From NCBI RefSeq assembly GCF_014701235.1, contig NZ_AP022873.1, forward strand, positions 2,170,001 through 2,234,000: 64,000 nt of DNA, given 5' to 3'. Below are positions 11,745 through 28,833 of this stretch, one piece after another. The position numbers and the translations under genes are program-made. The notes beneath the pieces are model-generated. The model was not told the DNA's origin, did not search any database, and was given only the letters and a program-made list of their open reading frames with translations. Each line of letters begins with the position of its first letter. Position 1 is the first letter of the stretch. Origin of the DNA: Dissulfurispira thermophila. Its GTDB lineage: Bacteria > Nitrospirota > Thermodesulfovibrionia > Thermodesulfovibrionales > Dissulfurispiraceae.

Positions 11745-12828
11745 AAATTCAAATCACTCTTCCATAGAAGGCATCTTCGGCACATATCTTAAGGAGTGGT
11801 GCAAAGAAGTGTATATAGTTTATTTTATAAAAACTTCCACCAATGTTAGCATAAAAGAAAATAAAATTTATATCCCATATTCATATAAGAGGAAGAATAT
11901 AACAAGAGAATTGGATAAAATCATTGGCCTGAATCAAATAGACAGTATTATTGTAAGAAATTTTTTTCCAGTACTAAAAAATGTCTTGAAAAATAAAATC
12001 CGCTACAATTATCGTGTTGGTTTCTGGCATTCATTCCCTCACACCTTCAGACGATTATTTGAAGCAAAAGAAGAAAATAGGGCTGTCTTCAGAAAAACTA
12101 TAGAATATAAGCTAAAAACCTATTTTGAAAAAAACCTTGTTAAGAAATGCGACTTCCTTATTGTCATGTCCAGAGAGTTTAAAAATACATTTTACCCAGA
12201 TATAGACATCAATTATTTGTCCCTTCCAATGGGTGTTTGTTTTAATAACCTGCCATCATATAAGCCGAATAGCGACCACTTAAAAAAATTCATTTATACA
12301 GGGACTGTTGATCATCTCAGAAAGACAGATATAATCGTTGAAGCTATTTCAGAATTAAAAGAAGAATTTATCTTCGATATATTTACACAAAGCAGCAACA
12401 AAACAACTAAAAAAATAAAAAATATCGGTGATGGAAGGATAAACATTTATCCTGCAATTCCAAGAAATGAGCTTTTTAAACGGATAGCAGACTATGATAT
12501 TGGTATCGGATTGATTCCCGAAAATGATCTATATAGTGTCTCTTCGCCAACAAAAACACTTGAGTATTACAGCATTGGAGTGCCTGTTATTGTTAATTAT
12601 TTGCCAGAATATGTTTCACTTTTTGACAATATGAGTGCCTTTTTTTGCGATTTTACAAAGGAGAGCATACGTGAAACAGTACAAAAAGTCTTAAATATTC
12701 CAAAAGAGAAACTTTTTGCAATGGGACTTAAAGGGAAGCAGATCGTAAAAGAGCAACGGGATTACAGAGTCTTAAGTGAAAAATTGTATAATTTCATAAA
12801 AGATGCATATAAACAACAAAAATCATAA
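11713..12828 (+). CDS. Glycosyltransferase (GT-B, GT4/GT1-like)
   Basis: About 371 residues, beginning MKILCITDQFENSNHSS at 11713. The longer frame from 11692 would extend further into the upstream GT9 and lacks support. The C-terminal half has the usual GT4 shape: KKFIYTGTVDHLRKTDIIVEA, GIGLIPENDLYSVSSPTKTLEYYSIGVPVI, in which the second family Glu (TLEYYS) is present, and a C-terminal helix. The N-terminal half is diverged. Base composition is very AT-rich, like the next two genes, which is common for O-antigen genes acquired by transfer. Confidence 0.85.
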   Translation: MKILCITDQFENSNHSSIEGIFGTYLKEWCKEVYIVYFIKTSTNVSIKENKIYIPYSYKRKNITRELDKIIGLNQIDSIIVRNFFPVLKNVLKNKIRYNYRVGFWHSFPHTFRRLFEAKEENRAVFRKTIEYKLKTYFEKNLVKKCDFLIVMSREFKNTFYPDIDINYLSLPMGVCFNNLPSYKPNSDHLKKFIYTGTVDHLRKTDIIVEAISELKEEFIFDIFTQSSNKTTKKIKNIGDGRINIYPAIPRNELFKRIADYDIGIGLIPENDLYSVSSPTKTLEYYSIGVPVIVNYLPEYVSLFDNMSAFFCDFTKESIRETVQKVLNIPKEKLFAMGLKGKQIVKEQRDYRVLSEKLYNFIKDAYKQQKS

Positions 12829-13881
12829 ATGGGAAATTTTCCTAAAATAATTGTAAGCTATTTTTTTGGACATAACAGTATCCCGCTTGGTGCATCATGT
12901 GTAAGAGCATTACAAGCTCTCAACTATGAAGTGCTTTGTTTTAACAGCGGCATAAACAATCCATTAGAGAAATATTTTTTCAAACCTATCAATAAAATAT
13001 TCTGGAACGTTGGCCTAAAAAAAATTGATATATCAAAAAATTCTCCTTGGAATAATCAAAAATTCATCCAAAAACTTTTGGAAAATGCAGTAGCCGAATT
13101 TAAACCTGACATACTTTTTATTTTAAGAGGGCATGGATTTGATGGAGAATATCTGCAATATCTAAAAAAACAATATAAAATCAATAAAATTGTCGGTTGG
13201 TGGGTCAAGGGTCCTAAATGGTTCGACCTAATGCTTTACGAGGCAAAATTTTATGACCACTTTTTTTGTATTCACAAGGAAGGGTACACCGCCGAGGACA
13301 AAATAGAGTATCTACCTGCTATAGCCGTGGATGACATCCTCTACAGGCCGCTCCATACTGGTTCCAATAAGCAATATACGAATAATGTTGTGTTTGTAGG
13401 AAGCTGGACACAAAGAAGACAGGACATCATAGAAGAATTAACAGGTTATCCAATTTCAATTTATGGCCCAAAATGGTTAAGAAAAAATATATTAAATTTT
13501 AAGATGTGCAAGATGATAAAAAGCAATAGCATCTGGGGCGAAAAGCTTATAGAGTTGTATAATAAAACAAAGATAGTAATAAATATATCTCAATGGGATA
13601 CATCAAATTTATCCGGACTCAACCTGAGGATCTTTGATATCCCTGCATGCGGTACTTTTTTAATTACAGATTATTCCGATGACCTAAAGGAATTTTTTAG
13701 GCTTGGAAAAGAAATCGAGACTTTTAAAGACAAAGAGGAATTAAAAGATAAAATAGCATACTATCTCAGAAATGACGATGAGCGTGAAAGAATTGCGATG
13801 AATGGATATAAAAAAGTCTTGAGACTTGGAACCTATAAGGATAAAATGGCTGAACTATTACGCAGAATAAGCTTTACATAA
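12829..13881 (+). CDS. CgeB-like glycosyltransferase
   Basis: A 350-residue protein of the CgeB/'glycosyl transferases group 1' type. It opens with a Rossmann-like strand (KIIVSYFFGHNSIPLGASCVRALQ) and has the family pattern VVFVGSWTQRRQDIIEEL followed by INISQWDTSNLSGLNLRIFDIPACGTFLITDY, where the GLNLRxFDIPACG segment is the hallmark. A C-terminal helix with YLRNDDERERIAMNGYKKVL is also typical. It starts directly after the preceding gene's stop with no spacing, so the two are co-translated. It probably has an O-antigen role. Confidence 0.85.
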   Translation: MGNFPKIIVSYFFGHNSIPLGASCVRALQALNYEVLCFNSGINNPLEKYFFKPINKIFWNVGLKKIDISKNSPWNNQKFIQKLLENAVAEFKPDILFILRGHGFDGEYLQYLKKQYKINKIVGWWVKGPKWFDLMLYEAKFYDHFFCIHKEGYTAEDKIEYLPAIAVDDILYRPLHTGSNKQYTNNVVFVGSWTQRRQDIIEELTGYPISIYGPKWLRKNILNFKMCKMIKSNSIWGEKLIELYNKTKIVINISQWDTSNLSGLNLRIFDIPACGTFLITDYSDDLKEFFRLGKEIETFKDKEELKDKIAYYLRNDDERERIAMNGYKKVLRLGTYKDKMAELLRRISFT

Positions 13882-13896
13882 TTATATGAGAATAAG

Positions 13897-14874
13897 GTGA
13901 AACAAAATATTTCATGTAACATATGCGGAAGCAACAACTATAAACTTATCTTCAGGGTAAAGGATTTAAATTACCGGACTACTGACGAAGAGTTTAGCAT
14001 TGTCAAATGCAAAAAGTGCGGACTCGTATACATAAATCCTCAACCTGTCAATCTCGAACAGTATTACCCTAAAACCTATATTCCCTATAACTCTATCACC
14101 AAAGACGCTGTTTTTAAGTTGCCTCTACGCAAGGCACTAGAGCTTTTCTACGGCTATCCATGCAAAGAATTTGTCTCGGTAAATTTGATGGCAAAACTGA
14201 GACACATCCATAGATTGTTCGAAATAAACTCCAAAGACAATTTTTTTCTTTACAGGATACCGTACAACAGGACTAAAAAAATATTAGATGTTGGTTGTGG
14301 GAATGGCAGCTATTTGTTGTCCCTTAAGTCCCTTGGATGGGATGCACGCACACAGCTTTATGGCATCGACTTCCCCAATGAAACGCTCAAATATTTAAGG
14401 GATATTGAACATATAAATATAATAGAAGGCAATTTTTTTGAAACAGATCTGCCAGAAAATTTTTTTGAAGTTGTTACACTACGCCATGTATTGGAACATT
14501 TCTCTGCCCCCGCATCTACACTAAAAAAGATTTTCAATATACTAAAGCATGGAGGGGTTGTCTTGATAAATGTTCCAAATTTTAAAAGCATAGAAGCACT
14601 GCTTATTTTTAAGGAAAAATGGCGTCATATAGATGCTCCAAGACATCTATTTCATTTTTCGCCAAAAGTGCTTAAGAGACTTCTAACAGATGCTGGATTC
14701 TCTATAAAACATATGTCTTTAAAAATAGCCAGCAGTCCATTTATAAAAAGCTTGGAACATTGTGGCTACCATGCCCCTAAATCTGTGGAAAAATATATAA
14801 TAAAAAATATGCTCAAGCTGGCAAAGCTTTTTGGATTTAGCGGAGAGATTTTATGTATCGCAATAAAAAAATAA
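13897..14874 (+). CDS. SAM-dependent methyltransferase with N-terminal zinc ribbon
   Basis: A 325-residue class I methyltransferase, GTG start. An N-terminal treble-clef zinc motif (CNICGS, then [13 protein letters not shown]) precedes the SAM-binding fold with motif [16 protein letters not shown], a later [11 protein letters not shown] and VLINVPNF. This combination is frequent in sugar or O-antigen methyltransferases of LPS clusters. The substrate is unknown. It lies between the CgeB-like transferase and the rhamnose genes. Confidence 0.87.
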
Positions 14875-14896
14875 AATATTTTGTGAAAGGACTGCA

Positions 14897-15784
14897 ATGA
14901 AAGGGATTATATTAGCAGGCGGTAGCGGAACAAGACTATATCCCATAACAATGGCTGTCTGTAAACAGTTATTGCCTGTTTATGATAAGCCTATGATTTA
15001 CTACCCTCTCTCCGTACTTATGCTCGCGGGGATAAGAGACATTTTAATAATCTCAAGGCCTCAGGATTTATCGAGGTTCAAAGATATATTAGGCGATGGC
15101 TCCCATATAGGACTTAATTTATCCTACAAAGAACAATTATATCCCAATGGTATTGCAGAGGCATTCATAATAGGAAAAAATTTTATAGGTAGCAATAATG
15201 TCTGCCTCATACTAGGAGATAACATATTTTATGGTCAAGGATTAACCAAGCTGCTCAAAAAAGCAATTGTAGATATAGAGACAAAAGGTGGGGCCACAAT
15301 TTTTGGTTATTGTGTAAATAATCCTGAGAGATATGGAGTTGTTGAGTTTGATAAAAATGGAAAGGCATTATCCATAGAAGAAAAACCAAAAGTTCCTAAA
15401 TCAAAATATGCAATAACTGGCTTATACTTCTATGATAACAATGTTATAGAAATTGCCAAAAATATTAAGCCATCACGGAGGGGTGAACTCGAGATAACGG
15501 ATGTAAATAATGAATACCTCAAAAAAAATAAACTCATGATTGAAATACTTGGAAGGGGATATGCATGGCTCGATACAGGAACTCACGACAGCCTTTTGGA
15601 AGCTGGTGAATTCATAGCAACTATCGAAAAAAGGCAAGGACTGAAGATAGCTTGCATAGAGGAAATCGCATATCGGATGGGTTATATCGATCAAGAACAG
15701 TTATTAAGGCTTGTAGAACCTTTAAAAAAAAGCGGATATGGCAAGTACCTTTTAAATGTTATCTGTTACGAACATAATCTGTAA
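14897..15784 (+). CDS. rfbA: RfbA, glucose-1-phosphate thymidylyltransferase
   Basis: A 295-residue enzyme forming dTDP-glucose from dTTP and glucose-1-phosphate, the first step of dTDP-L-rhamnose synthesis. The nucleotidyltransferase signature is [16 protein letters not shown], then [30 protein letters not shown], and [20 protein letters not shown]. Length and motifs are normal for RfbA/RmlA. It is the first of four contiguous genes A-C-D-B that make the full pathway. Confidence 0.97.
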
Positions 15785-15801
15785 AAAGGGGGATAAGATT
15801 T

Positions 15802-16365
15802 ATGCCCTTTAATTTCAAGAGACTCTATTTTCCTGAGGTTGTACTTATTGAACCAAAAATCTTTGAAGACAATAGGGGGTTCTTCATGGAGATATACAAA
15901 TATTCAGATTTTAGCAAGTTTGGAATAAGAGAATCCTTTGTTCAGGATAACTATTCCAAATCTGCAAAAGATGTCTTGAGGGGACTTCATTACCAAAAAA
16001 ACCCCATGGCACAGGGTAAACTAGTTCGTTGTTTCAAAGGAGAAATCTTTGATGTAGTAGTGGATATCAGAAAAGACTCTCCAACCTATAGTCAGTGGAT
16101 AAGCATCATCCTATCTGAAGAAAATAATCTCATGCTTTATATTCCGCCTGTATTTGCCCATGGATTTGTTGTCTTAAGCGACTATGCAGAGGTGGTTTAT
16201 AAATGTAGTAAAGAATATTCTCCGGATCATGAAAAGGGAATTATATGGAACGATCCTGATATTAATATCAAGTGGCCCGTTGAGAATCCTATACTTTCCG
16301 AGAAGGACAAAAAGCGTCCTCCTCTAAAATTTGCTGAAAATAATTTTAGATATTTGCCTAAGTGA
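15802..16365 (+). CDS. rfbC: RfbC, dTDP-4-dehydrorhamnose 3,5-epimerase
   Basis: A 187-residue cupin-fold epimerase. The active-site His is in RGLHYQKNP and the Asp in VVVDIRKDSP; FAHGFVVLSDYAEVVYKCS supplies the Tyr. It produces dTDP-4-dehydro-L-rhamnose, the substrate of RfbD. The SD is GGGGGATAAG-like (AAGGGGGAT before the ATG at 15802). It lies between rfbA and rfbD. Confidence 0.97.
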   Translation: MPFNFKRLYFPEVVLIEPKIFEDNRGFFMEIYKYSDFSKFGIRESFVQDNYSKSAKDVLRGLHYQKNPMAQGKLVRCFKGEIFDVVVDIRKDSPTYSQWISIILSEENNLMLYIPPVFAHGFVVLSDYAEVVYKCSKEYSPDHEKGIIWNDPDINIKWPVENPILSEKDKKRPPLKFAENNFRYLPK

Positions 16366-16366
16366 T

Positions 16367-17206
16367 ATGAAGTTTTTAATTACAGGAGCAAATGGACAAC
16401 TTGCAAGAGAGTTTCTGATGACTCTAAATACGCATGATGTAATTGCACTGAGTAAAGAGCATCTGGATATATCCAATCCAAATGCTGTATCAAATGCTAT
16501 TTCACAACATAAACCTGATGTTGTTTTAAACTGTGCAGCATATAATTCTGTAGACAGAGCAGAAGATGATTTTGATTCAGCATTCAGGACAAACGCTATA
16601 GGGGTTAGAAATTTAGCAACTGCCTGCAAAATGCATAATACTCTTATAGTCCATTACAGCACCGATTATGTATTTGACGGAGAAAAAAATGATTTCTATA
16701 CAGAGGAAGACAAGCCTAATCCAATAAACAAATATGGGGAAAGCAAATTATTGGGTGAAAAATACTTAACAGAAGAAACAGATAATTTTTTATTATTTAG
16801 GGTTAGCTGGGTATTTGGTAAAGGCAAGCAGAATTTCCTTTATAAACTATCGGAATGGGCAAAGAAAAACAATGTGCTGACGATAGTATGCGACCAAATC
16901 TCTGTGCCGACTTATACCGTAGACATTGTAAAATTTACACTTCTTTCAATAAAAGAAGGACTCAGAGGAACATATCACTTGACAAACAGCGGGTGCGCAT
17001 CAAGATATGAAGTTGCACGATATTATTTAGAAAAAATAGGTCTTACTAATTTAATTCTTCCTGTTAACTCTGAGGATTTTCATGAAAAGGCCAATAGACC
17101 TCATTTTTCTGTCATGTCAAATGTAAAACTCTCAAAGGCATTAAAACTTTCCATCCCTTCATGGAAAGAAGGTATCGAAAAATTTATTAAAAGGGGTATG
17201 AAGTGA
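16367..17206 (+). CDS. rfbD: RfbD, dTDP-4-dehydrorhamnose reductase
   Basis: A roughly 280-residue NAD(P)H-dependent short-chain/extended reductase. It starts MKFLITGANGQLAREF at 16367; an upstream start at 16331 in the same frame lies inside rfbC and is unlikely. Motifs: GANGQLARE (cofactor), STDYVFDG, and the catalytic YGESK. It reduces the keto sugar to dTDP-L-rhamnose. The stop overlaps the rfbB GTG start. Confidence 0.96.
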   Translation: MKFLITGANGQLAREFLMTLNTHDVIALSKEHLDISNPNAVSNAISQHKPDVVLNCAAYNSVDRAEDDFDSAFRTNAIGVRNLATACKMHNTLIVHYSTDYVFDGEKNDFYTEEDKPNPINKYGESKLLGEKYLTEETDNFLLFRVSWVFGKGKQNFLYKLSEWAKKNNVLTIVCDQISVPTYTVDIVKFTLLSIKEGLRGTYHLTNSGCASRYEVARYYLEKIGLTNLILPVNSEDFHEKANRPHFSVMSNVKLSKALKLSIPSWKEGIEKFIKRGMK

Positions 17207-18207
17207 AAAGGCTCTTAGTTACAGGTGGTGCTGGTTTTATCGGAAGTGAATTTGTAAGACAGGGAGTAAAAAGAGGATATAGAATTGCTGTTGTGGATAA
17301 AATCACCTATGCAGGTGATTTTATGAGAATAAATGACATTAAAAAGGAAATAGACATTTACATAGGGGATATTACAGACAGAAAGTTTATGGAAAGTGTC
17401 TTTAAGACAGCAAAACCGTATGCGGTTATCCATTGGGCAGCAGAGAGCCATGTTGATAGAAGCATTATAGACGCATCACCATTTTTCGATACAAATGTAA
17501 AGGGAACCCAAATTCTGCTGGATATTTCAAAAGCCTATGAAATAGAAAGGTTTATAAATATATCAACAGATGAGGTATATGGCGAACTTGGAGAAGAAGG
17601 ACAATTTTATGAAACAACACCTTTAAATCCTAATTCTCCTTATTCAGTCAGCAAAGCATCTGCAGATATGCTCGGAAGAGCATATTACAGGACATATGGA
17701 GTGCCTGTGCTAACAGTAAGACCATGTAATAATTATGGTCCATGGCAGTATCCTGAGAAACTCATCCCAATGGTAATACTAAAGGCAATAAATAATAAGA
17801 AAATCCCTATTTTTGGAACTGGGCAAAATATTAGAGAATGGCTATTTGTTTCTGATTGTGTAGATGCTGTATTTAAAATCATGGAAAAGGGTAAGATAGG
17901 AGAAACATATAACATTGGTAGTAGTGAAGAGAAAAAAAATATTGAAGTCGTTAAAATAATTTTAAAATTATTAAAAAAATCTGAAGATTTAATCGAATAT
18001 ACCAGTGACAGACTAGGCCATGATTTCAGGTATTCTTTAAATTCAGATAAAATAAACAAACAACTAAAATGGAAGGCTAAAACCGCATTCAATAAAGGAA
18101 TCGAAAGAACCGTAAAGTGGTACATAGACAATATGGTATGGACAAACACTAAACTTGCTCATCTGGAGAAGTATTGGAATACTGTTTATAAGAAAAATAA
18201 CAAATAG
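17203..18207 (+). CDS. rfbB: RfbB, dTDP-glucose 4,6-dehydratase
   Basis: A 334-residue extended short-chain dehydrogenase. The NAD site is TGGAGFIGSEF, the active site ISTDEVYGEL, and the catalytic Tyr-Lys is in YSVSKASADML; RPCNNYGPWQYPEKLIP is also typical. It converts dTDP-glucose to the 4-keto-6-deoxy sugar. It starts with GTG overlapping the rfbD stop by 4 bp. With rfbA, rfbC and rfbD it makes the rhamnose donor for the glycosyltransferases upstream. Confidence 0.97.
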   Translation: MKRLLVTGGAGFIGSEFVRQGVKRGYRIAVVDKITYAGDFMRINDIKKEIDIYIGDITDRKFMESVFKTAKPYAVIHWAAESHVDRSIIDASPFFDTNVKGTQILLDISKAYEIERFINISTDEVYGELGEEGQFYETTPLNPNSPYSVSKASADMLGRAYYRTYGVPVLTVRPCNNYGPWQYPEKLIPMVILKAINNKKIPIFGTGQNIREWLFVSDCVDAVFKIMEKGKIGETYNIGSSEEKKNIEVVKIILKLLKKSEDLIEYTSDRLGHDFRYSLNSDKINKQLKWKAKTAFNKGIERTVKWYIDNMVWTNTKLAHLEKYWNTVYKKNNK

Positions 18208-18210
18208 GCT

Positions 18211-19515
18211 ATGAAAAAAATAATGAAAAAAGACCAAAGTGAAAAATCAATACAAATTGAATATGCTGCCTTAATCTGCCTCAGCATTTTAATCTTTATT
18301 CTCCCCATTGCCCATACAGCAACTATTAGGTCTTTTGCTCTTTTCACTCCTCTTGTGTTATTAATTTTAAAATACTGGCATGATAAAGATTTTAAATGGA
18401 TCAAAACTTCCTTTGAATTACCTTTTCTTGCATTTTTTATAATTGCATTAGCTTCTCTACCAACTTCCGTAGATTTTCATGAGAGTTTTAAAGAAATAAG
18501 AGGAGAATTAATTAAACCCATAGTGCTTTTTTATTTAACATATTTTGCAATTAAGAAAGAAACCGACGGATTATTACTGCTAAAAGTACTTTTTTTAGGG
18601 AGTCTCATATTTAGTCTTTATTCTTTTTACGACTTCTACAAAAATGGTGGCACATGGTTTTCTGTAACATATAAGGCAGGAGGATTAAGAGACCCAGGTG
18701 GTGGTGAGGTTGCTGCCGTATATCATACAATGGTCATGCCATTTCTTTTCTGGGGATTATTTTATGTAAAAGATATATGGCAACGCATTGGATTATCTGC
18801 TTTGCTTGCGATTAATCTTTTAGCATTTCATATAACATTTGTTCGTGCAGGCATGCTGGCAATAGCATTTCAAATGGTTTTAATAATCGTTTTGTTAATA
18901 CTCCAAAAGCGATGGGTATGGAGTTTTATACTATTAATCTTTGCAGTTACTGTAAGTTTTGTATATATTGAAAATAAAATGTTTCGTGAGATGCATACAG
19001 AAAAAATACCTTCACTGAGAGAATATATGATGATGCCACCTGAAGACATAGCAGGGACCTCTCCATCTTCTATGAAGCAGCGATTGGCAATGTGGAAGGT
19101 CGCAATTGATAAAATATCTGAAAATCCTTTTTATCCTCATGGTTATGGAAGATTCCTATTTGGCAAGACAGTAAGAAATGAAAAAAACAAGTATTTTATA
19201 TATCCACAGACTCACAACACTTTTATAGGTATTGCTTTTGAACTTGGCATACAGGGCTTAATTATATTTCTATGGATGATAGGGACATTCTTCTTTGTTT
19301 GCTGGAGATACTGGCACAAATCCAAAGAAGACAACACCACTGGATATCTGTCAGCGTCTTTACTTACAATGATGGCAGGATACTGGATAAATAATTTCTT
19401 TGGAAGTTTTGACGGTGATGACAGTAAGCTGCTTTTTATGATGCTACTTGGCATAGGCATGGCTGTTATGCACAGGCTCCCAAAAGAAAAGAAACTATTA
19501 ATCCAAAAACAATGA
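18211..19515 (+). CDS. O-antigen ligase/polymerase family membrane protein (WaaL-like)
   Basis: A 434-residue polytopic inner-membrane protein with about ten hydrophobic segments and a large periplasmic loop (about 245-330). The Wzy_C signature is present: PQTHNTFIGIAFELGIQGLIIFL, with the His and Gly pattern used by WaaL-type ligases to attach O-antigen to lipid A core. It could also be a Wzy polymerase. Its stop overlaps the GT9 stub at 19512 by 4 bp. No flippase or O-antigen ABC exporter is seen in the window. Confidence 0.85.
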   Translation: MKKIMKKDQSEKSIQIEYAALICLSILIFILPIAHTATIRSFALFTPLVLLILKYWHDKDFKWIKTSFELPFLAFFIIALASLPTSVDFHESFKEIRGELIKPIVLFYLTYFAIKKETDGLLLLKVLFLGSLIFSLYSFYDFYKNGGTWFSVTYKAGGLRDPGGGEVAAVYHTMVMPFLFWGLFYVKDIWQRIGLSALLAINLLAFHITFVRAGMLAIAFQMVLIIVLLILQKRWVWSFILLIFAVTVSFVYIENKMFREMHTEKIPSLREYMMMPPEDIAGTSPSSMKQRLAMWKVAIDKISENPFYPHGYGRFLFGKTVRNEKNKYFIYPQTHNTFIGIAFELGIQGLIIFLWMIGTFFFVCWRYWHKSKEDNTTGYLSASLLTMMAGYWINNFFGSFDGDDSKLLFMMLLGIGMAVMHRLPKEKKLLIQKQ

Positions 19516-19631
19516 AAAAGATCCTCTTTATTCGCCGTGACAATATTGGTGACCTTGTATGCACAACATCTGCAATTTATGCAGTTAGAGGGATGATTGA
19601 AAAAAAATCGGTTTTAAATTATAATAATTAG
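19512..19631 (+). pseudogene. Duplicated 5' fragment of the GT9 gene at 21026
   Basis: The 39-codon frame reads [19 protein letters not shown], then AIYAVR, then unrelated residues. Its first 78 bp match the first 78 bp of the intact GT9 gene at 21026 with 6 differences by my count. The DUF234 ATPase gene lies exactly between the two copies. The pattern is that of an insertion or recombination which left a broken gene start upstream and an intact gene downstream. Confidence 0.85.
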
Positions 19632-19638
19632 AAACCGA
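19603..19638. other. Inverted repeat between the GT9 fragment and the ATPase gene
   Basis: ATCGGTTT and AAACCGAT (8-bp arms, about 18 bases apart, ending at the ATPase start codon) flank an AT-only loop. It may be an operator of the ATPase gene or the left end of the inserted unit. No matching copy is seen at the right junction near 21026. Confidence 0.5.
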
Positions 19639-21029
19639 TGAATATATTTGCAAATCGGAAATCAGAACTACACACCCTTGAGTCAGAATACGCCAAGGAG
19701 TCTGCACGGTTTGTCGTTATTTATGGCAGGCGCAGAATTGGCAAAACAACACTAATCAAAGAATTCCTGAAAAATAAGCCCTACATATATTTTCTTGCAG
19801 ACAGACAGATTGAAATAGAATTAATCGATAGGTTTCGAGATGTAGTCTCTGAATATCTTAAATATCCGCATATTAAAGAAATTGATTTCAAGACATGGGA
19901 CAGCATTATTGACTACTGGATAAGACATTCAGATTTTTCCACAAAAGTGGTTGTTGTGATTGATGAGTTTCAGTATATAGCAAGGGTAAATAGTGCCTTT
20001 CCGTCTATATTGCAAAGAATCTGGGATGAGAAACTCAAAAGCAAAAACATTATGCTTATCTTATGCGGCTCTTTGATAAACATGATGTATTCAACTACCC
20101 TGAGTTACAACAGCCCTCTATATGGCAGACGCACAGGACAGTTAAAAGTAGAGCCTATCAGTTTTAATGCCTTTTCAGAGTTTTTCCCGAATCTCAGAAC
20201 AGAAAGGCTTATAGAGTTTTACAGCGTAATTGGCGGGGTTCCTAAATACATGGAAATATTCAATCCCAAAAAAGATGTATTTCATAACATCCGTGAATAC
20301 ATCTTAAATAAAACAGGCTATCTTTATGCTGAGCCGAGATTTATCCTTTCTGATGAGTTGACAGAGACTACAACATATTTTTCTATTCTAAAAACCATTG
20401 CGCAGGGTGAAAGAAAGATGGGCAATATCGCAGCACGACTTATGACACCAACGCAAAACCTCACAGGATATTTTAATGTGCTGATAGATCTTGATATACT
20501 TGAAAGAAGAGTGCCTGTCACAGAAGAAATGCCTGAAAAAAGCAAGATGGGTTTATACTTTATAAAAGACAATTTCTTTCGTTTCTGGTTCAGGTATGTA
20601 TTTGCCAATCAAAATTATCTTGAGCTTGAAAATACGGACTATGTTTTGCAAAAAATCAAAGATGATTTCGATGAGTTTGTAAGCATCACCTTTGAAGATA
20701 TTGCACCATACATTCTCTTTAGCAAAGAAATGATAAAAAAACTGCCTTTTGAACCCGACAAGTGGGGGAGGTGGTGGGATAGAAATGATGAGATTGACCT
20801 CATAGCACTTAATAAAAAGGAAAAAAAGGCTCTTTTCGTGGAATGCAAGTGGAGCAAAAGACCTGTTGATGTTGATGTCATGGAAAACCTTAAAAGAAAA
20901 GCTAACAGAGTTGAGTGGTTTAAAGAAAAACGAAAAGACTATTTTGCAATTATAAGCAGAAAGGGGTTTACAAAAAGACTGCATGATTATTCTGAAAAAT
21001 ATGGAGTTATCCTTATAAGCATCTCATGA
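19638..21029 (+). CDS. DUF234-type AAA ATPase with nuclease-like C-terminus
   Basis: A 463-residue protein of the archaeal-ATPase/DUF234 family. The N-terminal P-loop domain carries Walker A GRRRIGKTTLI (about residues 30-40) and Walker B VVVIDEFQYI. The middle has a winged-helix part, and the C-terminal DUF234 domain contains WWDRNDEIDLIALNKK and LFVECKWSKRP, resembling the Asp/Glu/Lys core of PD-(D/E)xK nucleases. These genes are frequently mobile and patchy, and their role is unknown. This one lies precisely between a duplicated GT9 gene start (19512) and the complete GT9 gene (21026), and its stop overlaps that gene's ATG. Confidence 0.88.
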   Translation: MNIFANRKSELHTLESEYAKESARFVVIYGRRRIGKTTLIKEFLKNKPYIYFLADRQIEIELIDRFRDVVSEYLKYPHIKEIDFKTWDSIIDYWIRHSDFSTKVVVVIDEFQYIARVNSAFPSILQRIWDEKLKSKNIMLILCGSLINMMYSTTLSYNSPLYGRRTGQLKVEPISFNAFSEFFPNLRTERLIEFYSVIGGVPKYMEIFNPKKDVFHNIREYILNKTGYLYAEPRFILSDELTETTTYFSILKTIAQGERKMGNIAARLMTPTQNLTGYFNVLIDLDILERRVPVTEEMPEKSKMGLYFIKDNFFRFWFRYVFANQNYLELENTDYVLQKIKDDFDEFVSITFEDIAPYILFSKEMIKKLPFEPDKWGRWWDRNDEIDLIALNKKEKKALFVECKWSKRPVDVDVMENLKRKANRVEWFKEKRKDYFAIISRKGFTKRLHDYSEKYGVILISIS

Positions 21030-22039
21030 AAAAAATCCTCTTTATTCGCCGTGACAATATTGGTGACCTTATATGCACAACACCTGCAATTTATGCTGTG
21101 AGGCAAAAATATCCTGATGCAAAGATAGGAATACTGGTCAACAGCTATAATGCTGATGCAATAATAAACAATCCTGACATTGACGAAATATATGTCTATG
21201 AAAAGGCAAAGCATGTGCCTGAGAAAAATAAGCTTTCTGTATGGTGGAGCAATCTAAAAGTCCTTATGAGAATAAGAAAAGAGCAGTATGATGTTGCCAT
21301 CGGGTGCGGCTCTTATTCTCCGAGACTTGTAAGATATACCTATATGACAGGTGCAGCAGTGAGAATAGGATATTTGTCGAAAAATGTTGACAAGTCTAAA
21401 TCCTACAATATGCCTATATGCGAACCAGAAAAGCCTTTGCATGAGGTAGAGATGGTCTTTAATCTCTTATCTCCCCTTGACATAAACAATACGCCATCAC
21501 CATTAAGAATTTTCCCATTATCCGATGAAACACAAAAGGTTAAAAATTTTTTAAATATCTCAGACATTAAGGAAGGAAAGCCGCTTATAACCTTTCACAT
21601 AAGCAGCAGACGTCCTGAAAACAGATGGCCTATTGATAAATTTATAGAGCTTGCAAGGCTTATTATCAGCCGATATGATGCCAATATCTTGCTTTTGTGG
21701 TCCCCAGGAAGTGAAAAAAATCCTTATCATCCCGGAGACGATGAAAAGGCAGAGTTAATTATTAAATCAGTGCCTCAAATTATTCCATACAGAACAAATC
21801 ATTTAAGAGAACTTATTGCTGTCCTTAGCTTTGCCAATCTGGTTGTCTGTCTTGATGGAGGAGCAATGCATATAGCAGCAGCACTTGGAAAACCAATTGT
21901 AACAATATGGGGATCTACAAACCCCGACAGATGGAGGCCATGGGGAGTAAAACATATAATTCTTCAGGATGAAAACAAAAAGGCTGAGAATATAAGCATT
22001 GAGGCAGTTTTTAATGCAGTGGAAAAACTTTTAGCTTAA
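21026..22039 (+). CDS. Glycosyltransferase family 9 (heptosyltransferase-like)
   Basis: A 337-residue GT-B enzyme. N-terminal [31 protein letters not shown], mid-protein [13 protein letters not shown] (donor contact), and C-terminal [25 protein letters not shown] are family motifs. It is the third complete GT9 gene here and the last gene of the LPS region. Its first 78 bp are duplicated upstream of the ATPase gene. The start codon overlaps the ATPase stop, so expression may now depend on read-through from that gene. Confidence 0.92.
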
Positions 22040-22055
22040 ATGTTACTTTATTTTT

Positions 22056-22424
22056 ATGCGTTACGGCACTAAGGCAATAAAAAAGGCAAAACTTGAGGTT
22101 TGGGACAATCCTAATCCTGAAAGGGATTATGAGATCAATATCTCATTTCCTGAATTCACCTGCCTCTGTCCTCGTTCAGGCTATCCAGACTTTGCAACCA
22201 TCAAGATAAACTATGTCCCTGACAAAAAAATTGTGGAATTAAAGGCATTAAAGCTCTATCTGAATTCATTCAGAGATGTTCACATCTCCCATGAGGAGAT
22301 AACAAACAGGATATATTCAGAACTCGAAAAAGCTCTTAAACCAAGATTTCTTGAGGTGGTAGGGGATTTTAACCCGAGAGGAAATGTAAAGACAATTATC
22401 CGTGTGGTGTCAAAGCAGCCTTAG
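22056..22424 (+). CDS. queF: QueF, NADPH-dependent preQ0 reductase
   Basis: A 122-residue type I (YkvM-like) QueF, which reduces 7-cyano-7-deazaguanine (preQ0) to preQ1 for queuosine in tRNA. The catalytic Cys is in [16 protein letters not shown], where the Asp also serves catalysis, and the QueF motif is [21 protein letters not shown]. Length fits the single-domain form. Its 3' end overlaps the 3' end of trpF on the other strand by 29 bp. No other queuosine genes are nearby. Confidence 0.95.
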
Positions 22425-23019
22425 CCTTCTCAATGAACTCTCTCATTTTTCTCAAATCCTTCTTTCCTTTTTCCTCCTCTATCCCACTGCTGACATCAAC
22501 TGCATATGGCCTGACCCATCTGATGGCCTTTTCGATATTATCAGGATTAAGGCCACCTGAAAGTATAATCCTGCCAAATCTCTTTGCTTCTACAGCGATA
22601 TCCCAGTTGAATATTTGGCCTGTGCCTCCAAATGATTCAGGGGAATAAGTATCAAGCAAAAATGCAGAACATCTGTATTTTTCGAGTGGTTTTAAATCTG
22701 TAAAATCCCTCAATCTAAATGCCTTTATGACTTTGTGCCAGATGCTGCACATATCAGGACCCTCATCTCCATGCAGTTGAAGGACATTTATACCTGTGAA
22801 GTTCATTATTTCCTTTATCTTTTCTGTATCTTCATTCACAAATACACCGATAGTTGTCACAAATGGCGGCAGAAGAGATATTATTTCTCTCGCCTTCTCA
22901 GGAGAGACACATCTTGGACTTTTTTCAAAAAATATAAATCCAAGGGCATCTGCACCATAATCCACTGCAGATAGCGCATCCTCAATATTTGTTATTCCGC
23001 AAATCTTAACACGAATCAT
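22396..23019 (-). CDS. trpF: TrpF, phosphoribosylanthranilate isomerase
   Basis: A 207-residue TIM-barrel enzyme of tryptophan synthesis (Amadori rearrangement of PRA to CdRP). Motifs: [12 protein letters not shown] with the catalytic Cys, [16 protein letters not shown] with the catalytic Asp, and [14 protein letters not shown] for phosphate binding. It is on the minus strand directly downstream of the TrpB2 gene. The other early trp genes (E, G, D, C) are not in this window. Confidence 0.96.
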
Positions 23020-23070
23020 ATTTAAACTTAAATAACGAAAGTATTGGTTACTTGATATGCTTTTTATAAA

Positions 23071-24423
23071 TTATACCACGGGCAACTTTGCCAGTGATTC
23101 CCTAATCATCTCGTCAGGATATTCATAATCTACAAGTCTTCCAGCAAGATAATCAGAATATGCAGCAAGGTCAAGGTATCCATGTCCGCTGAGGTTAAAT
23201 AAAATACACTTGCTTTTGCCTTCTTCTCTACATAACAATGCATCATCAATAGCAGCCCTTATAGCATGAGAGCTTTCAGGTGCAGGAATTATAGCCTCTG
23301 TTTTTGCAAATGTTATCGCAGCCTCAAATACAGAAAGCTGACCATATGCCCTCGCCTCAATAAGACCATCTTTATAAAGCTGAGAAACCAAAGGAGACTC
23401 TCCATGATACCTCAACCCTCCTGCGTGAATTCCAGGAGGTATAAAGTCATGACCAAGTGTGTACATCATCAAGAGAGGGGTAAGCCCTGCTGTATCACCA
23501 AAGTCATATCTGTACTCTCCTTTTGTCAGGGTTGGACAAGATACTGGCTCTACAGCAATAGCCTTTATATCTCTGCCATGAATTTTATCATATATAAATG
23601 GAAAGCTTATTCCTCCAAAATTGCTCCCTCCACCACTGCACGCAATCACTATATCAGGATACTCACCAATCAGCTCTAATTGTCTTTTTGCCTCAAGCCC
23701 AATAACCGTCTGGTGCAGCAGGACATGATTCAATACAGAACCAAGGGCATAATTTGTATCATCATGAGTTGCTGCATCTTCAACAGCCTCTGAAATTGCT
23801 ATGCCAAGGCTCCCGGGATTATCAGGATTTGCTTCGAGTATTTTTCTACCTGAATTGGTAACAGCAGATGGGCTTGCATGGACATTTGCGCCCCATGTCT
23901 CCATTGCAATTCTTCGATATGGTTTTTGATTATAGCTCACTCTGACCATATAAACAGTCACATCAAGACCAAACAAACTTCCAGCCAATGCCATTGAAGA
24001 ACCCCATTGACCGGCTCCTGTCTCTGTTGCAATCCTTTTTATTCCTGCTTTTTTATTATAATAAGCCTGTGGAATTGCTGTATTTGGTTTATGACTGCCT
24101 GCAGGGCTCACGCCTTCATATTTGTAATAAATCCTTGCTGGTGTCTTTAATGCATCCTCCAATCTCTTGGCCCTATAAAGAGGAGAGGGTCTCCAAAGTG
24201 CATATATGTCAAGGACTTCGTCAGGGATGTCAATCCACCTTTCTGAAGTCATCTCCTGTTCTATCAATGCCATGGGGAAAATAGCTTTTAAATCATCTGG
24301 TCCTGCTGGTTTTTTGGTACCCGGATGAAGTGGTGGGTTGGGAAGATTTGGCATATCAGCCATAATGTTATACCACTGCCTTGGTATCTCTTTTTCTGAT
24401 AAAAGAATCTTTGTTTCCTGCAT
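23071..24423 (-). CDS. TrpB2-type tryptophan synthase beta chain
   Basis: A 450-residue PLP enzyme of the TrpB2 group, longer than classical TrpB. The PLP lysine is in [19 protein letters not shown], and the glycine-rich phosphate loop is [10 protein letters not shown]. TrpB2 proteins condense indole or phosphoserine-type substrates with serine and usually lack the helix that docks TrpA. It is divergent from the standard trpB at 24505, separated by 81 bp, so the organism keeps both types. It could work as a stand-alone indole salvage enzyme. Confidence 0.93.
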
Positions 24424-24462
24424 TTTTTCTCCTCCTTACCATAATCCGTAATGATTCACAAC

Positions 24463-24486
24463 TCACATTAATGAATGTGATATAAT
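24463..24486 (+). promoter_or_regulatory. trpB promoter with palindrome (possible operator)
   Basis: The palindrome TCACATT-AATG-AATGTGA (24463-24480) abuts a perfect -10, TATAAT (24481-24486). The likely transcription start is about 12 bp before the trpB ATG, so the leader is very short and has no SD. The palindrome may bind a regulator of both divergent trpB genes. A nearby 7-bp repetition (ATTCACA, ACTCACA) means it could instead be a decayed heptamer array. Confidence 0.5.
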
Positions 24487-24504
24487 ACCAAAACTCGAAA
24501 TATT

Positions 24505-25713
24505 ATGCAGAAAATAAAGATTATTAGAAAATTACCTGACAAAAACGGATACTTCGGGCAATACGGTGGAAGATTTATCCCCGAAACCCTTATGCCTGCA
24601 CTTCAGGAACTTGAAGAAGCATATTCAAAGACTAAAAAAGATATATCATTTCAAAACGAACTAAAACATCTTCAGGAAACATATATTGGGAGACCAACGC
24701 CTCTTTACTTTGCAAAGAGGCTTACAAGACATCTCGGGGGAGCAAAGATATATCTAAAGCGTGAAGATTTGGCACACACAGGCGCACATAAAATAAATAA
24801 TGCACTTGGACAGGCACTTCTTGCAAAAAAAATGGGTAAAAAAAGATTAATTGCAGAAACAGGTGCAGGACAGCATGGCGTGGCCACTGCTACAGGCGCT
24901 GCCCTTGTTGGATTAGAATGTGAGATATACATGGGTTCAGAAGATGTGCAGAGACAGTCTTTGAATGTGTTCAGAATGAAATTGCTCGGTGCAAATGTTA
25001 ATGAAGTCAATATAGGTTCAAAGACATTAAAAGATGCTATAAACGAAGCATTGAGAGATTGGACAACAAATGTGAGAAACACCCATTATGTGATGGGAAC
25101 AGTATTTGGTCCACATCCTTTTCCTATGCTGGTAAGAGACTTCCAGTCTGTAATAGGCAGAGAGGCAAAAAAACAGATACTCAAAATAGAGGGCAAACTA
25201 CCTGATTATCTGATAGCATGTGTAGGCGGCGGCAGCAATGCTATGGGCTTGTTCTATGAATTCCTTTACGATAATGTAAAAATGATTGGGGTAGAAGCAG
25301 GAGGAAAAGGAATAGAATCAGGAGAACATGCTGCAAGATTCGCAGGAGGTTCTATCGGTGTTTTTCAGGGATGTAAAAGCTATCTGCTTCAGGATGACAA
25401 TGGTAACGTGCTTGGTACACATTCAGTATCAGCAGGGCTGGATTATGCCTCCATAGGTCCTGAACATCCTTATTTAAGAGATATAAAAAGGGTACAATAC
25501 ACATATGCCACAGATAAAGAGGCATTGTCAGCATTTGAACTCCTCTCAAAAACAGAGGGCATAATACCTGCACTTGAGTCAGCACATGCCATTGCAGAGG
25601 CTGTGAAACTTGCACAATCACTGCCTAAACATAAAATCATCATAGTTAATTTATCAGGACGAGGAGATAAGGATGTACAGCAGGTAGCAAGGATTAAAGG
25701 AATAGAATTATGA
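24505..25713 (+). CDS. trpB: TrpB, tryptophan synthase beta chain
   Basis: A 402-residue classical TrpB1. It starts with a short extension before [21 protein letters not shown]. The PLP lysine is in [22 protein letters not shown], then [18 protein letters not shown], and the phosphate loop [10 protein letters not shown]. It makes L-tryptophan from indole and serine in complex with TrpA, encoded immediately downstream. trpB and trpA overlap by 4 bp. Confidence 0.97.
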
Positions 25714-26510
25714 ATAGAATTATAAGGGGAGATTCTTTGAATAAAATAGAAACCACATTTAAACGGTTGAAGGCTGAAAACAAAAAGGCATTTATCCCAT
25801 ATATCATGGCAGGAGACCCAGACCTCGAAAAGACTATAGAACATGTCATGCTTTTAACAGAATGTGGTGCAGACATTATAGAACTCGGAGTGCCTTTTTC
25901 AGACCCCCTCGCGGATGGACCGACAATACAGAGGGCTGCTGAAAGGGCATTAAAGGCTGGAGTTACATTAAGAAGAATAATCCAGTTTGTCAAAAATATT
26001 AGGCAGTATACACAGATACCAATAGTTCTGATGACATATTATAACCCTGTATTTAAATATGGAGAACTACCTTTTATAAAAGATTCTGTGGCTGCAGGTA
26101 TTGACGGAGTAATAATCCCTGACCTGCCGCCAGAAGAAGGGATAGACTTTATCAAACTGGCACAAGATGCGGATCTTAGCACAATATTTCTTGTTGCACC
26201 AACATCTACAAGAGAAAGGATAAAATATATCACATCTGTTTCAAGCGGCTTTATATATTATGTTTCTATGACTGGAATAACAGGTTCTAAACTTGATATG
26301 GACAGGACATTCAAAAGTCATATAGCACATGTAAAAAAGGTTGCTGATAAGCCTGTAGCCGTTGGTTTTGGTGTTTCAACTCCTGAAGATGCAAAAACAA
26401 TTGCACAGATTGCTGACGGTGTGATTATAGGAAGTGCAATAGTAAAAAGATTATATGAACACCCCTTGAGTGCAAAGGATTTTATAAAAAAACTGAGGGA
26501 GGCGATTTAA
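25710..26510 (+). CDS. trpA: TrpA, tryptophan synthase alpha chain
   Basis: A 266-residue TIM barrel that cleaves indole-3-glycerol phosphate. The catalytic Glu and Asp are in [19 protein letters not shown], and phosphate binding is by [11 protein letters not shown] and [12 protein letters not shown]. Two starts are possible: the ATG at 25710 overlapping the trpB stop, or a TTG at 25737 after a better SD (AAGGGGAGA); the latter gives a more usual N-terminus. The next gene is accD, as in many trpBA-accD-folC arrangements. Confidence 0.96.
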
Positions 26511-26538
26511 TCTGAAGTTTCAAATTTGAAATTTCAGA
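26511..26538. repeat. Heptamer array between trpA and accD
   Basis: Four units in phase (TCTGAAG, TTTCAAA, TTTGAAA, TTTCAGA) begin directly after the trpA stop and form the spacer before accD. The middle is also a palindrome. If translation began at 26526 the array would be read, but the AccD family start is later. Confidence 0.85.
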
Positions 26539-26549
26539 TACCTGATATT

Positions 26550-27404
26550 ATGGCATGGTTTAAAAAAACAAAGGAAATAAAAGCAGAAAAAAAGGTAAAG
26601 ATACCCGAAGGATTATGGGTAAAATGTGACAGTTGCAAGGAGATTATTTACAAAAAAGAGATAGAAAAAAACCTTCAGGTATGCCCTAAATGCAACTATC
26701 ATTTCAGGATAAGTGCTTCAGAGCGTATTAAGCTCATAGCAGATGAGGGGAGTTTTGTTGAAATGGATGCTGACCTTTCTACTACTGATCCACTTGATTT
26801 TAAGGATACAATCCCATATAAAGATAGACTTGAAGAAAATAAAAAGAAAACAGGATTAAAAGAAGCTGCTATATATGGCAATGCTACAATAAATCAAAGA
26901 CCTGTTGTCCTTGCAATCATGGATTTCTCATTCATGGGTGGTAGCATGGGGTCTGTTGTTGGAGAGAAGATATCAAGGGCTGCAGAAAGAGCACTGGAAG
27001 ATAAGATACCTCTTATAGTCGTCTCATCATCAGGTGGTGCAAGGATGCAAGAAGGCATGTTCTCTTTAATGCAAATGGCAAAAGTATCTGCTGCTATTTC
27101 AAAACTCAAAGAATCGGGTATCCTTTATATCACAATACTTGCAGATCCAACATTCGGAGGGGTGACTGCAAGTTTTGCAATGCTTGGAGATATAATCATA
27201 GCAGAACCTAAAAGCCTTATAGGTTTTGCAGGACCAAGAGTAATAGAACAGACAATAAAACAACAACTGCCTGAGAATTTCCAGAGGGCTGAGTTCCTCC
27301 TTGAGCATGGGATGATAGATATTGTAGTCGAGAGAAAGGAACTCAAAAACACCATCTACAAGTTAATCGAACACTTTATGCCGCAACCTCTAAATGAGGG
27401 ATAG
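26550..27404 (+). CDS. accD: AccD, acetyl-CoA carboxylase carboxyltransferase subunit beta
   Basis: About 284 residues. I place the start at 26550 (MAWFKK, the usual AccD opening) and not at 26526, which would translate part of the heptamer spacer. An N-terminal zinc ribbon (CDSCKEIIYKKEIEKNLQ, then CPKCNYHF) and the crotonase fold with MGGSMGSVVGEKISRA and SSSGGARMQEGM are visible. With AccA it transfers carboxyl from biotin to acetyl-CoA, giving malonyl-CoA for fatty acids; accA is not in this window. Confidence 0.96.
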   Translation: MAWFKKTKEIKAEKKVKIPEGLWVKCDSCKEIIYKKEIEKNLQVCPKCNYHFRISASERIKLIADEGSFVEMDADLSTTDPLDFKDTIPYKDRLEENKKKTGLKEAAIYGNATINQRPVVLAIMDFSFMGGSMGSVVGEKISRAAERALEDKIPLIVVSSSGGARMQEGMFSLMQMAKVSAAISKLKESGILYITILADPTFGGVTASFAMLGDIIIAEPKSLIGFAGPRVIEQTIKQQLPENFQRAEFLLEHGMIDIVVERKELKNTIYKLIEHFMPQPLNEG

Positions 27405-27429
27405 GAAAAGTGCGCTTGCAGGATAAACT

Positions 27430-28833
27430 ATGAGCTATTATGATGCGATTAATTATTTATACAGCCTTCAAAAATATGGCATCAAGCTTGGCATTGAAAA
27501 AACAAAGACAATATTATCACAATTAGGGAATCCACATAAAGATTTCTCTTCTATACATATTGCCGGTACAAATGGAAAAGGTTCTGTATCAGCAATGATT
27601 GCCTCGATTTTAGCAGCACATGGTTTTAAGGTCGGCTTGTTCACATCGCCTCATCTTGTTAGTTTTACAGAAAGGATAAAAATTAATAATCACCAGATTT
27701 CAGAATCAGATGTAGTAAGCCTGACAGAAGAAATAAAAGAACGGATTTTAGACCAGCGGGAAGGTACTACTGCGATACTGCGATACTGCGATACTGCTCC
27801 CACATTTTTTGAATTTGTTACTGCAATGGCATTTCTGTATTTCTCAAGGAATAATGTAGATTGGGCAGTAATAGAGACAGGCATGGGGGGAAGGCTTGAT
27901 GCTACAAATATAATTATACCCAAAGTTTCTGTTATAACAAAGATAGGATATGATCATAAAGAATTTCTTGGAGAAACATTAACAGCCATAGCAAGCGAGA
28001 AAGCTGGAATAATAAAATCAGAAATCCCTGTTGTTTCTGCATATCAGGAAAAAGAAGCAGAAGATGTGATTATAAAGGTTGCAAAAGAAAAATCATCTCC
28101 ATTCTTTATATATGGAAAAGATTTTAGCGGTAAACTAAAATCATCAGATATTAAAGGGATTACATTTGACTATTTAGATAATTCACATATAATTACAGAC
28201 TTGCATACTCCTTTAGCAGGAGAACACCAACTCTTTAATGCTTGTGTAGCAGTAAAAGCTACAATGACTGCACTACAAAGAACTCCATTGCACATAGACC
28301 TTTTAAAAGATGGTCTTGCTGCTACAGAATGGCATGGACGGCTTGAAATAGTAAGCAAAGAACCATTGATAATGATTGACGGTGCTCACAATCCCGATGC
28401 TGCAAAAGCACTCTCAGAATTCATAAAAAAATATTTGAATGATTATAAAATTATCCTTATAATCGGTATAATGTCAGATAAAGATATGCAAGGTATCATG
28501 TCTCCTCTCTTGCCACTTGCATCTAAAATAATATTTACTGCTCCGAACTACGGTAGGGCTGCATCCCCTGAAAACCTTGCTGGGATAGCCTTACAAATGG
28601 GATTTTCTTCAATGGTGGCAAATTCTGTGAAAGAGGCTATTGACATGGCAAAGGAGTTAGTCAATCGTCAAGGGTTAAGCATCAAGAGTCAAACAATGAC
28701 AGAAGTTAGAAGTCAGAGCATTATGCACAACGTTCAACTTATTCTAATCACTGGTTCTTTCTATACTATAGGAGAAGCTTTGGAAATACTCGGTGAAAAA
28801 GCAACTCTCGGAAGCCTGAGGGAAACGGTATGA
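27430..28833 (+). CDS. folC: FolC, dihydrofolate/folylpolyglutamate synthase
   Basis: A 467-residue Mur-ligase-family enzyme that adds glutamate to dihydropteroate or folates. The P-loop is HIAGTNGKGSVSAMIASIL, the substrate region GLFTSPHLVSFTERI, and ETGMGGRLDATN and DGAHNPDAAKAL are also family motifs. Two repeat insertions are in frame: an octamer array around residues 114-123 and a heptamer array around 410-430. The protein is somewhat longer than typical because of them. The end overlaps lptD by 4 bp. Confidence 0.95.
   Translation: MSYYDAINYLYSLQKYGIKLGIEKTKTILSQLGNPHKDFSSIHIAGTNGKGSVSAMIASILAAHGFKVGLFTSPHLVSFTERIKINNHQISESDVVSLTEEIKERILDQREGTTAILRYCDTAPTFFEFVTAMAFLYFSRNNVDWAVIETGMGGRLDATNIIIPKVSVITKIGYDHKEFLGETLTAIASEKAGIIKSEIPVVSAYQEKEAEDVIIKVAKEKSSPFFIYGKDFSGKLKSSDIKGITFDYLDNSHIITDLHTPLAGEHQLFNACVAVKATMTALQRTPLHIDLLKDGLAATEWHGRLEIVSKEPLIMIDGAHNPDAAKALSEFIKKYLNDYKIILIIGIMSDKDMQGIMSPLLPLASKIIFTAPNYGRAASPENLAGIALQMGFSSMVANSVKEAIDMAKELVNRQGLSIKSQTMTEVRSQSIMHNVQLILITGSFYTIGEALEILGEKATLGSLRETV
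27771..27797. repeat. Octamer array (TGCGATAC x3) in folC
   Basis: TGCGATAC is repeated three times perfectly, followed by TGC. It encodes AILRYCDTA, a loop before helix TFFEFVTAM. The period is 8 bp, unlike most arrays here. Confidence 0.92.
28657..28719. repeat. Degenerate heptamer array near the folC 3' end
   Basis: Nine units in constant 7-bp phase (TTAGTCA, ATCGTCA, AGGGTTA, AGCATCA, AGAGTCA, AACAATG, ACAGAAG, TTAGAAG, TCAGAGC). They encode a hydrophilic stretch, NRQGLSIKSQTMTEVRSQS, before the last strand of the protein. Confidence 0.75.

Follow-up and report, generated by a model that had tools for sequence, protein, structure and literature searches.

An accessory ATPase gene inserted at a ligase/GT9 junction of Dissulfurispira thermophila is flanked by a duplicated GT9 gene start

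Introduction

It is poorly understood how genomes acquire accessory and candidate defence genes that carry no transposase. One pattern, termed 'insertion with long target duplication', was drawn from two H. pylori genomes and often concerns restriction–modification (R-M) genes (Nobusato et al. 2000, as cited in PMC1643837). Later papers (PMC3874152, PMC3031569) likewise describe R-M systems that are unlinked to any mobile element and have long, variable target duplications of the order of 100 bp. A 64,000-nt stretch of the Dissulfurispira thermophila genome, called the window throughout, raises the question for a different kind of gene: how did a lone ATPase gene come to lie between two copies of the start of a GT9 gene?

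Results

Layout of the locus

The left neighbour on the + strand is an intact O-antigen ligase gene (Wzy_C; 18211..19515; Pfam PF04932, E = 2.3e-19), and the right neighbour is an intact, heptosyltransferase-like GT9 gene encoding 337 aa (21026..22039, +; PF01075, E = 5.2e-30). Comparison of the flanks by blastn returned a repeat with E ~1e-30. This direct repeat is ungapped, and 72 of its 77 positions (94%; 5 differences) are identical between 19512-19588 and 21026-21102. A preliminary description of this DNA had counted six differences over 78 bp, in agreement with the present count, as a sixth mismatch falls at position 78. The downstream copy is the first 77 nt of the complete GT9 gene. 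The upstream copy (19512..19588, +) is a non-functional remnant, a dead short frame in which a stop is reached after 39 codons. It directly follows the ligase gene, as had been described, and the ligase TGA shares the sequence ATGA with the ATG of the copy.

The two copies delimit an inserted unit of 1,437 nt (19589..21025, +), which consists of a 49-nt leader and an ATPase_2-DUF234 gene of the PDC-S27 type (19638..21029, +; 463 aa; PF01637 and PF03008). The TGA of this gene is built from the GT9 start, forming the same ATGA overlap as that between the ligase gene and the upstream copy. The earlier statement that the ATPase gene lies between the copies with its stop overlapping the intact GT9 ATG is borne out by the ORFs (19638-21029 and 21026-22039), and the host gene, earlier read as functional, is complete. 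In the ORF list, no transposase, integrase or IS was present within 19589-21025, where the ATPase gene is the only plausible gene and the others are short shadow ORFs. No inverted repeat pairing the two insert ends was found, and inspection of the ORFs of 12000-30000 revealed neither an integrase nor a related integrative element.

Within the inserted unit, an 8-bp inverted repeat, ATCGGTTT / AAACCGAT (19607..19639, +; arms at 19607-19614 and 19632-19639), overlaps the ATPase start codon; RNA folding gave z = -2.3. This element is a candidate operator, possibly autoregulatory, or a candidate start-codon hairpin.

The inserted ATPase gene

The PADLOC PDC-S27 profile matches residues 2-440 of the ATPase, which is most of the protein (E = 1.3e-47). 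The protein contains Walker A (GRRRIGKTT) and Walker B (DEF) motifs together with a nuclease-type PD-(D/E)XK motif, EID(385-387)...E402-x-K404. Across 15 related proteins the Walker motifs, E385-I386-D387 and K404 are invariant, and E402 is nearly so. According to PMC12988326, PDC-S27 and PDC-S01 (PADLOC) are candidate single-gene defence ATPases fused to PD-(D/E)XK members, and the majority of PDCs await experimental proof. The window protein resembles these families in its profile match and in being an ATPase with, by its motifs, a PD-(D/E)XK-type domain. That paper covers the distribution and phylogeny of the PDCs; flanking duplications are not mentioned in its accessible text. The family assignment makes a single-gene antiphage ATPase-nuclease the most likely cargo.

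The window genome contains one DUF234 gene. The nearest ATPase relatives found are fusobacterial, at 46.8-48.5%, and those from the phylum and archaeal surveys described below reach ~44% or less; fusobacterial nearest relatives are consistent with a horizontal gain of the gene. Convincing flanking repeats were not found around the plasmid-borne fusobacterial relatives.

The extent of the unit could be examined in four DUF234 ATPases (loci L089, L094, L095 and L110, in genomes G002, G227, G282 and G357) that stand at unrelated loci and share 81-90% identical DNA. Their homology extends from -47..-51 of the start codon to approximately the stop codon, with little outside, and at one of the four loci it runs 52 nt past the stop codon. 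As homology of leader plus gene is common to four unrelated loci, the moving unit is the gene with its leader. In each of the four a palindromic leader of the TTACTTT...AAAGTAA type adjoins the ATPase start codon. At L094, in a bacterium, and L169, in an archaeon, the ATPase leader is repeated ~155 nt past the ATPase stop, and at L169 there is additionally a truncated ATPase start upstream.

Empty sites in relatives

In five relatives (G001, G002, G036, G023 and G014) the ligase gene is followed by a single intact GT9 gene with no ATPase gene between them, and the target is therefore single-copy at the orthologous, insert-free locus. The GT9 orthologues at these five sites are 59-78% identical to the window GT9; within the genus the range is 76-78%. 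In G003 the contig ends at the GT9 gene, and in G015 a different gene precedes it. The empty sites indicate insertion, as opposed to a decayed tandem paralogue: the ATPase gene was inserted at the ligase/GT9 junction, and both neighbours are intact. The preliminary description had proposed a search for relatives with the ligase gene directly before GT9, and these five, each with one complete GT9 gene, are what that search yielded. It had named an empty site with a pair of complete GT9 genes as a sign of paralogue decay, and no such arrangement was seen in the relatives examined. It had also spoken of insertion by recombination; the insertion is upheld by the empty sites, with recombination a putative molecular step.

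A decayed tandem GT9 paralogue might have been expected in a genome that holds several further GT9 genes. However, only one GT9 gene follows the ligase gene in relatives, and the remnant is 94% identical to the adjoining GT9 start, whereas the remaining GT9 proteins listed for this genome reach at most 30%. Decay of a tandem paralogue was rejected on account of the single GT9 at the empty sites. A chance repeat is countered by the control genes described below, which are almost without such repeats, and an assembly error by the placement of the window within a single-contig genome. These explanations, even taken together, are extremely improbable.

Origin of the duplication in the window

The two window copies match one another at 72/77 positions, and the nearest other genome matches the GT9 copy at 69/77. 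Because the GT9 copy has its closest counterpart in the upstream copy and not in the nearest orthologue, the duplication most likely happened in this lineage. Import of the GT9 start from another known species was rejected, both copies being nearer to each other than to any congener. Where the copies differ at positions 9, 46, 58 and 75, the majority of seven relatives side with the GT9 copy; the window differences are mostly derived in the upstream copy, and other loci are mixed. This distribution fits a duplication in place that would have been followed by decay of the redundant upstream copy.

The probable explanation is that an accessory gene with its 49-nt leader was inserted at the ligase/GT9 junction and that the insertion generated a 77-nt target duplication. 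Incoming DNA would have been sealed into a break whose strand ends lay far apart, giving rise to the duplication; alternatively, repair synthesis may have copied ~80 nt of the target. The joining could have been carried out by host or donor functions and need not have involved the ATPase. The right-hand copy has kept the GT9 gene complete, with the left-hand copy now decaying. The right-hand ATGA gives the ATPase gene a stop with the 4-nt overlap that the ligase gene has in relatives, and the operon should thus stay translatable. No donor or intermediate molecule was found.

The main rival is that the incoming DNA, whether a small circle or a piece of chromosome from a relative, carried the ATPase gene together with a GT9 5' end and underwent a crossover with the resident GT9 gene within the shared stretch. 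Such an event would resemble att-site integration, or that of a cis-mobilizable element that has lost its integrase. A pre-formed ATPase-GT9 unit would explain the ATGA overlap of the ATPase stop and the GT9 start. However, with the window copies nearest each other, only a close strain could have supplied the carried end, and no integrase or related integrative element was found among the ORFs of 12000-30000. Moreover, the four related ATPases occupy unrelated loci and so show no attachment to a particular gene end. A carried gene end is consequently judged unlikely for the window, and target duplication is favoured.

Direct repeats around accessory genes

In one comparison, flanking repeats were present at 5/25 DUF234 ATPases, and at an identical cut-off 0/297 other ORFs (at least 250 aa, from comparable regions of at most 20 kb) had a flanking repeat of 25 nt or longer. 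In a larger survey, the 500 nt upstream of each gene were compared with the 500 nt downstream, and direct repeats scoring at least 22 were counted. It combined 29 DUF234 genes from the phylum of the window with 77 from the archaeal phylum around a Thermoplasmata genome. Here repeats flanked 18/106 DUF234 ATPases as against 5/588 other ORFs of the same DNA (p ~1e-11). All the surveys rely on draft genomes in which ORFs were taken from the first start codon, and on a score threshold that was chosen; the numbers of loci are modest. The repeats around the 18 ATPases are mostly gene ends, and among the five repeat-flanked controls one (L070) also encodes an ATPase from the wider family. Once leader repeats, one repeat array and one inverted-repeat element were set aside, 13/106 DUF234 loci remained (p ~6e-8), and an additional archaeal draw gave 2/25. 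At ~80% or more of the DUF234 loci there is no such repeat; repeats at older insertions may have decayed.

Flanking repeats were also present at 4/28 DUF4143 ATPases, one of which (in G056) has a 97-nt copy of a uvrA 3' end, and at 6/52 Fic loci in the same phyla. The Fic rate is similar to that of DUF234 (p = 0.26 against 18/106) and far above that of ordinary ORFs (p ~7e-5). The similar rates in DUF4143 and Fic genes mean that the repeat signature is not special to DUF234, and the Fic result suggests that it belongs to accessory single-gene insertion in general. As the control ORFs are mainly ordinary genes, the enrichment reflects accessory status as much as any other property. The earlier proposal that host-gene duplications be sought beside other DUF234 genes was productive in that they are enriched there, but they do not serve as a mark of DUF234. 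At five Fic genes (L306, L340, L351, L361 and L362) direct repeats of ~33-100 nt lie on both sides.

Host gene ends are duplicated, with the gene left intact, at L093, L068, L102, L165, L168, L162 and, for uvrA, L257. The duplicates at L093 are the last bases of both convergent neighbours, and at L068, L102, L165, L168 and L162 they are 3' gene ends. Duplication lengths at comparable loci are ~30-190 nt, with 217 nt at L269 and 77 nt in the window. Both bacterial and archaeal genomes show long duplications around genes of this kind.

Divergence between the copies at other loci

Summed over the duplicates, differences by codon position were 19, 8 and 30 (positions 1, 2 and 3); this test is not decisive because the functional copy also adds third-position changes. 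At L068 and L102 the copy differences resemble ordinary decay, which argues against a carried gene end at those loci. At L168 (4, 0, 10) and L093 (2, 0, 4), by contrast, the differences are mainly synonymous, mostly at the third position with none at the second, and at L257 the core of the copy is identical and its edges have diverged. Such a synonymous-site bias and such diverged edges would not be predicted from a fresh duplication and neutral decay, and the former is in keeping with a carried end.

In G056 the uvrA copies share an identical 77-nt core with synonymous differences at the edges; the upstream, functional uvrA copy has a tail unlike that of congeners, and the native uvrA 3' flank comes after the downstream copy. 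This arrangement looks like, and hints at, a crossover with an incoming gene end. A tRNA-like gene duplicated around the ATPase at L185, read by hand only, would also suit a carried end.

The L185 duplication (in G508) is 144 nt long and was hand-read as an archaeal intron-bearing tRNA gene, Trp-like; neither ARAGORN nor Rfam detected it as a tRNA gene. The uvrA 3' end has received two DUF4143 ATPases that are unrelated to each other, at L285 (G056) and L284 (G137), which suggests that some gene ends are hot spots. At L285 the native end of uvrA has been displaced to a position downstream of the ATPase.

Movement by the ATPase itself

A third route would have the ATPase-nuclease move itself, its PD-(D/E)XK domain nicking the target with a wide stagger so that the duplication is a target-site duplication. 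The catalytic motif is conserved, the ATPase domain is weakly similar to TnsC (E = 0.0017), and the unit comprises the leader and the gene and nothing more, all of which would suit such a route. Against this, the Fic family lacks such a nuclease and yet has a similar repeat rate (6/52 as against 18/106, p = 0.26), and the single DUF234 copy gives no sign of multiplication in this genome. Self-movement is hence considered very improbable; transposition specific to DUF234 is weakened by the Fic control.

A broader proposal is that DUF234/DUF4143-type ATPase-nuclease genes form minimal mobile elements, each a leader and a single ORF, that would pass from gene end to gene end by a dedicated recombination route, the host end being duplicated or replaced and the insertion harmless. 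This proposal is speculative and improbable. A literature search linking DUF234, PF01637 or PF03008 to mobility found nothing relevant.

Discussion

The window locus fits 'insertion with long target duplication', a pattern that is known and mechanistically unexplained. The points in common are a defence-type accessory gene that is missing from the empty allele, a direct target duplication of the order of 100 bp (77 nt in the window), preserved host genes and the lack of a transposase or IS. The differences are that a lone ATPase-nuclease gene takes the place of the R-M system as cargo, and that the host is another organism. Cis-mobilizable elements (CIMEs), which are remnants of integrase-bearing elements, and integrative elements that restore gene ends (PMC5704250) resemble the locus in that direct repeats containing the end of a host gene enclose the cargo and leave that gene intact. 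They differ from it in that no integrase and no related ICE or IME was seen here (ORFs 12000-30000), and in that the inserted unit is a single 1.4 kb gene.

Because five relatives retain the empty site, the locus provides a clean example of such an entry. Judging by the survey, approximately one-ninth to one-sixth of insertions of this kind may be marked by long gene-end duplications, across three gene families and at least two phyla. Gene-end duplications are thus a simple, computable handle by which insertions may be collected, polarised by their empty sites and used to probe the recombination route.

Such repeats also occur on viral contigs. At L298 (IMGVR_UViG_3300024268_003777) a DUF234 ATPase lies between 48-nt copies with a terminator-like hairpin, and a viral-contig relative, L302, has a 25-nt flanking repeat.
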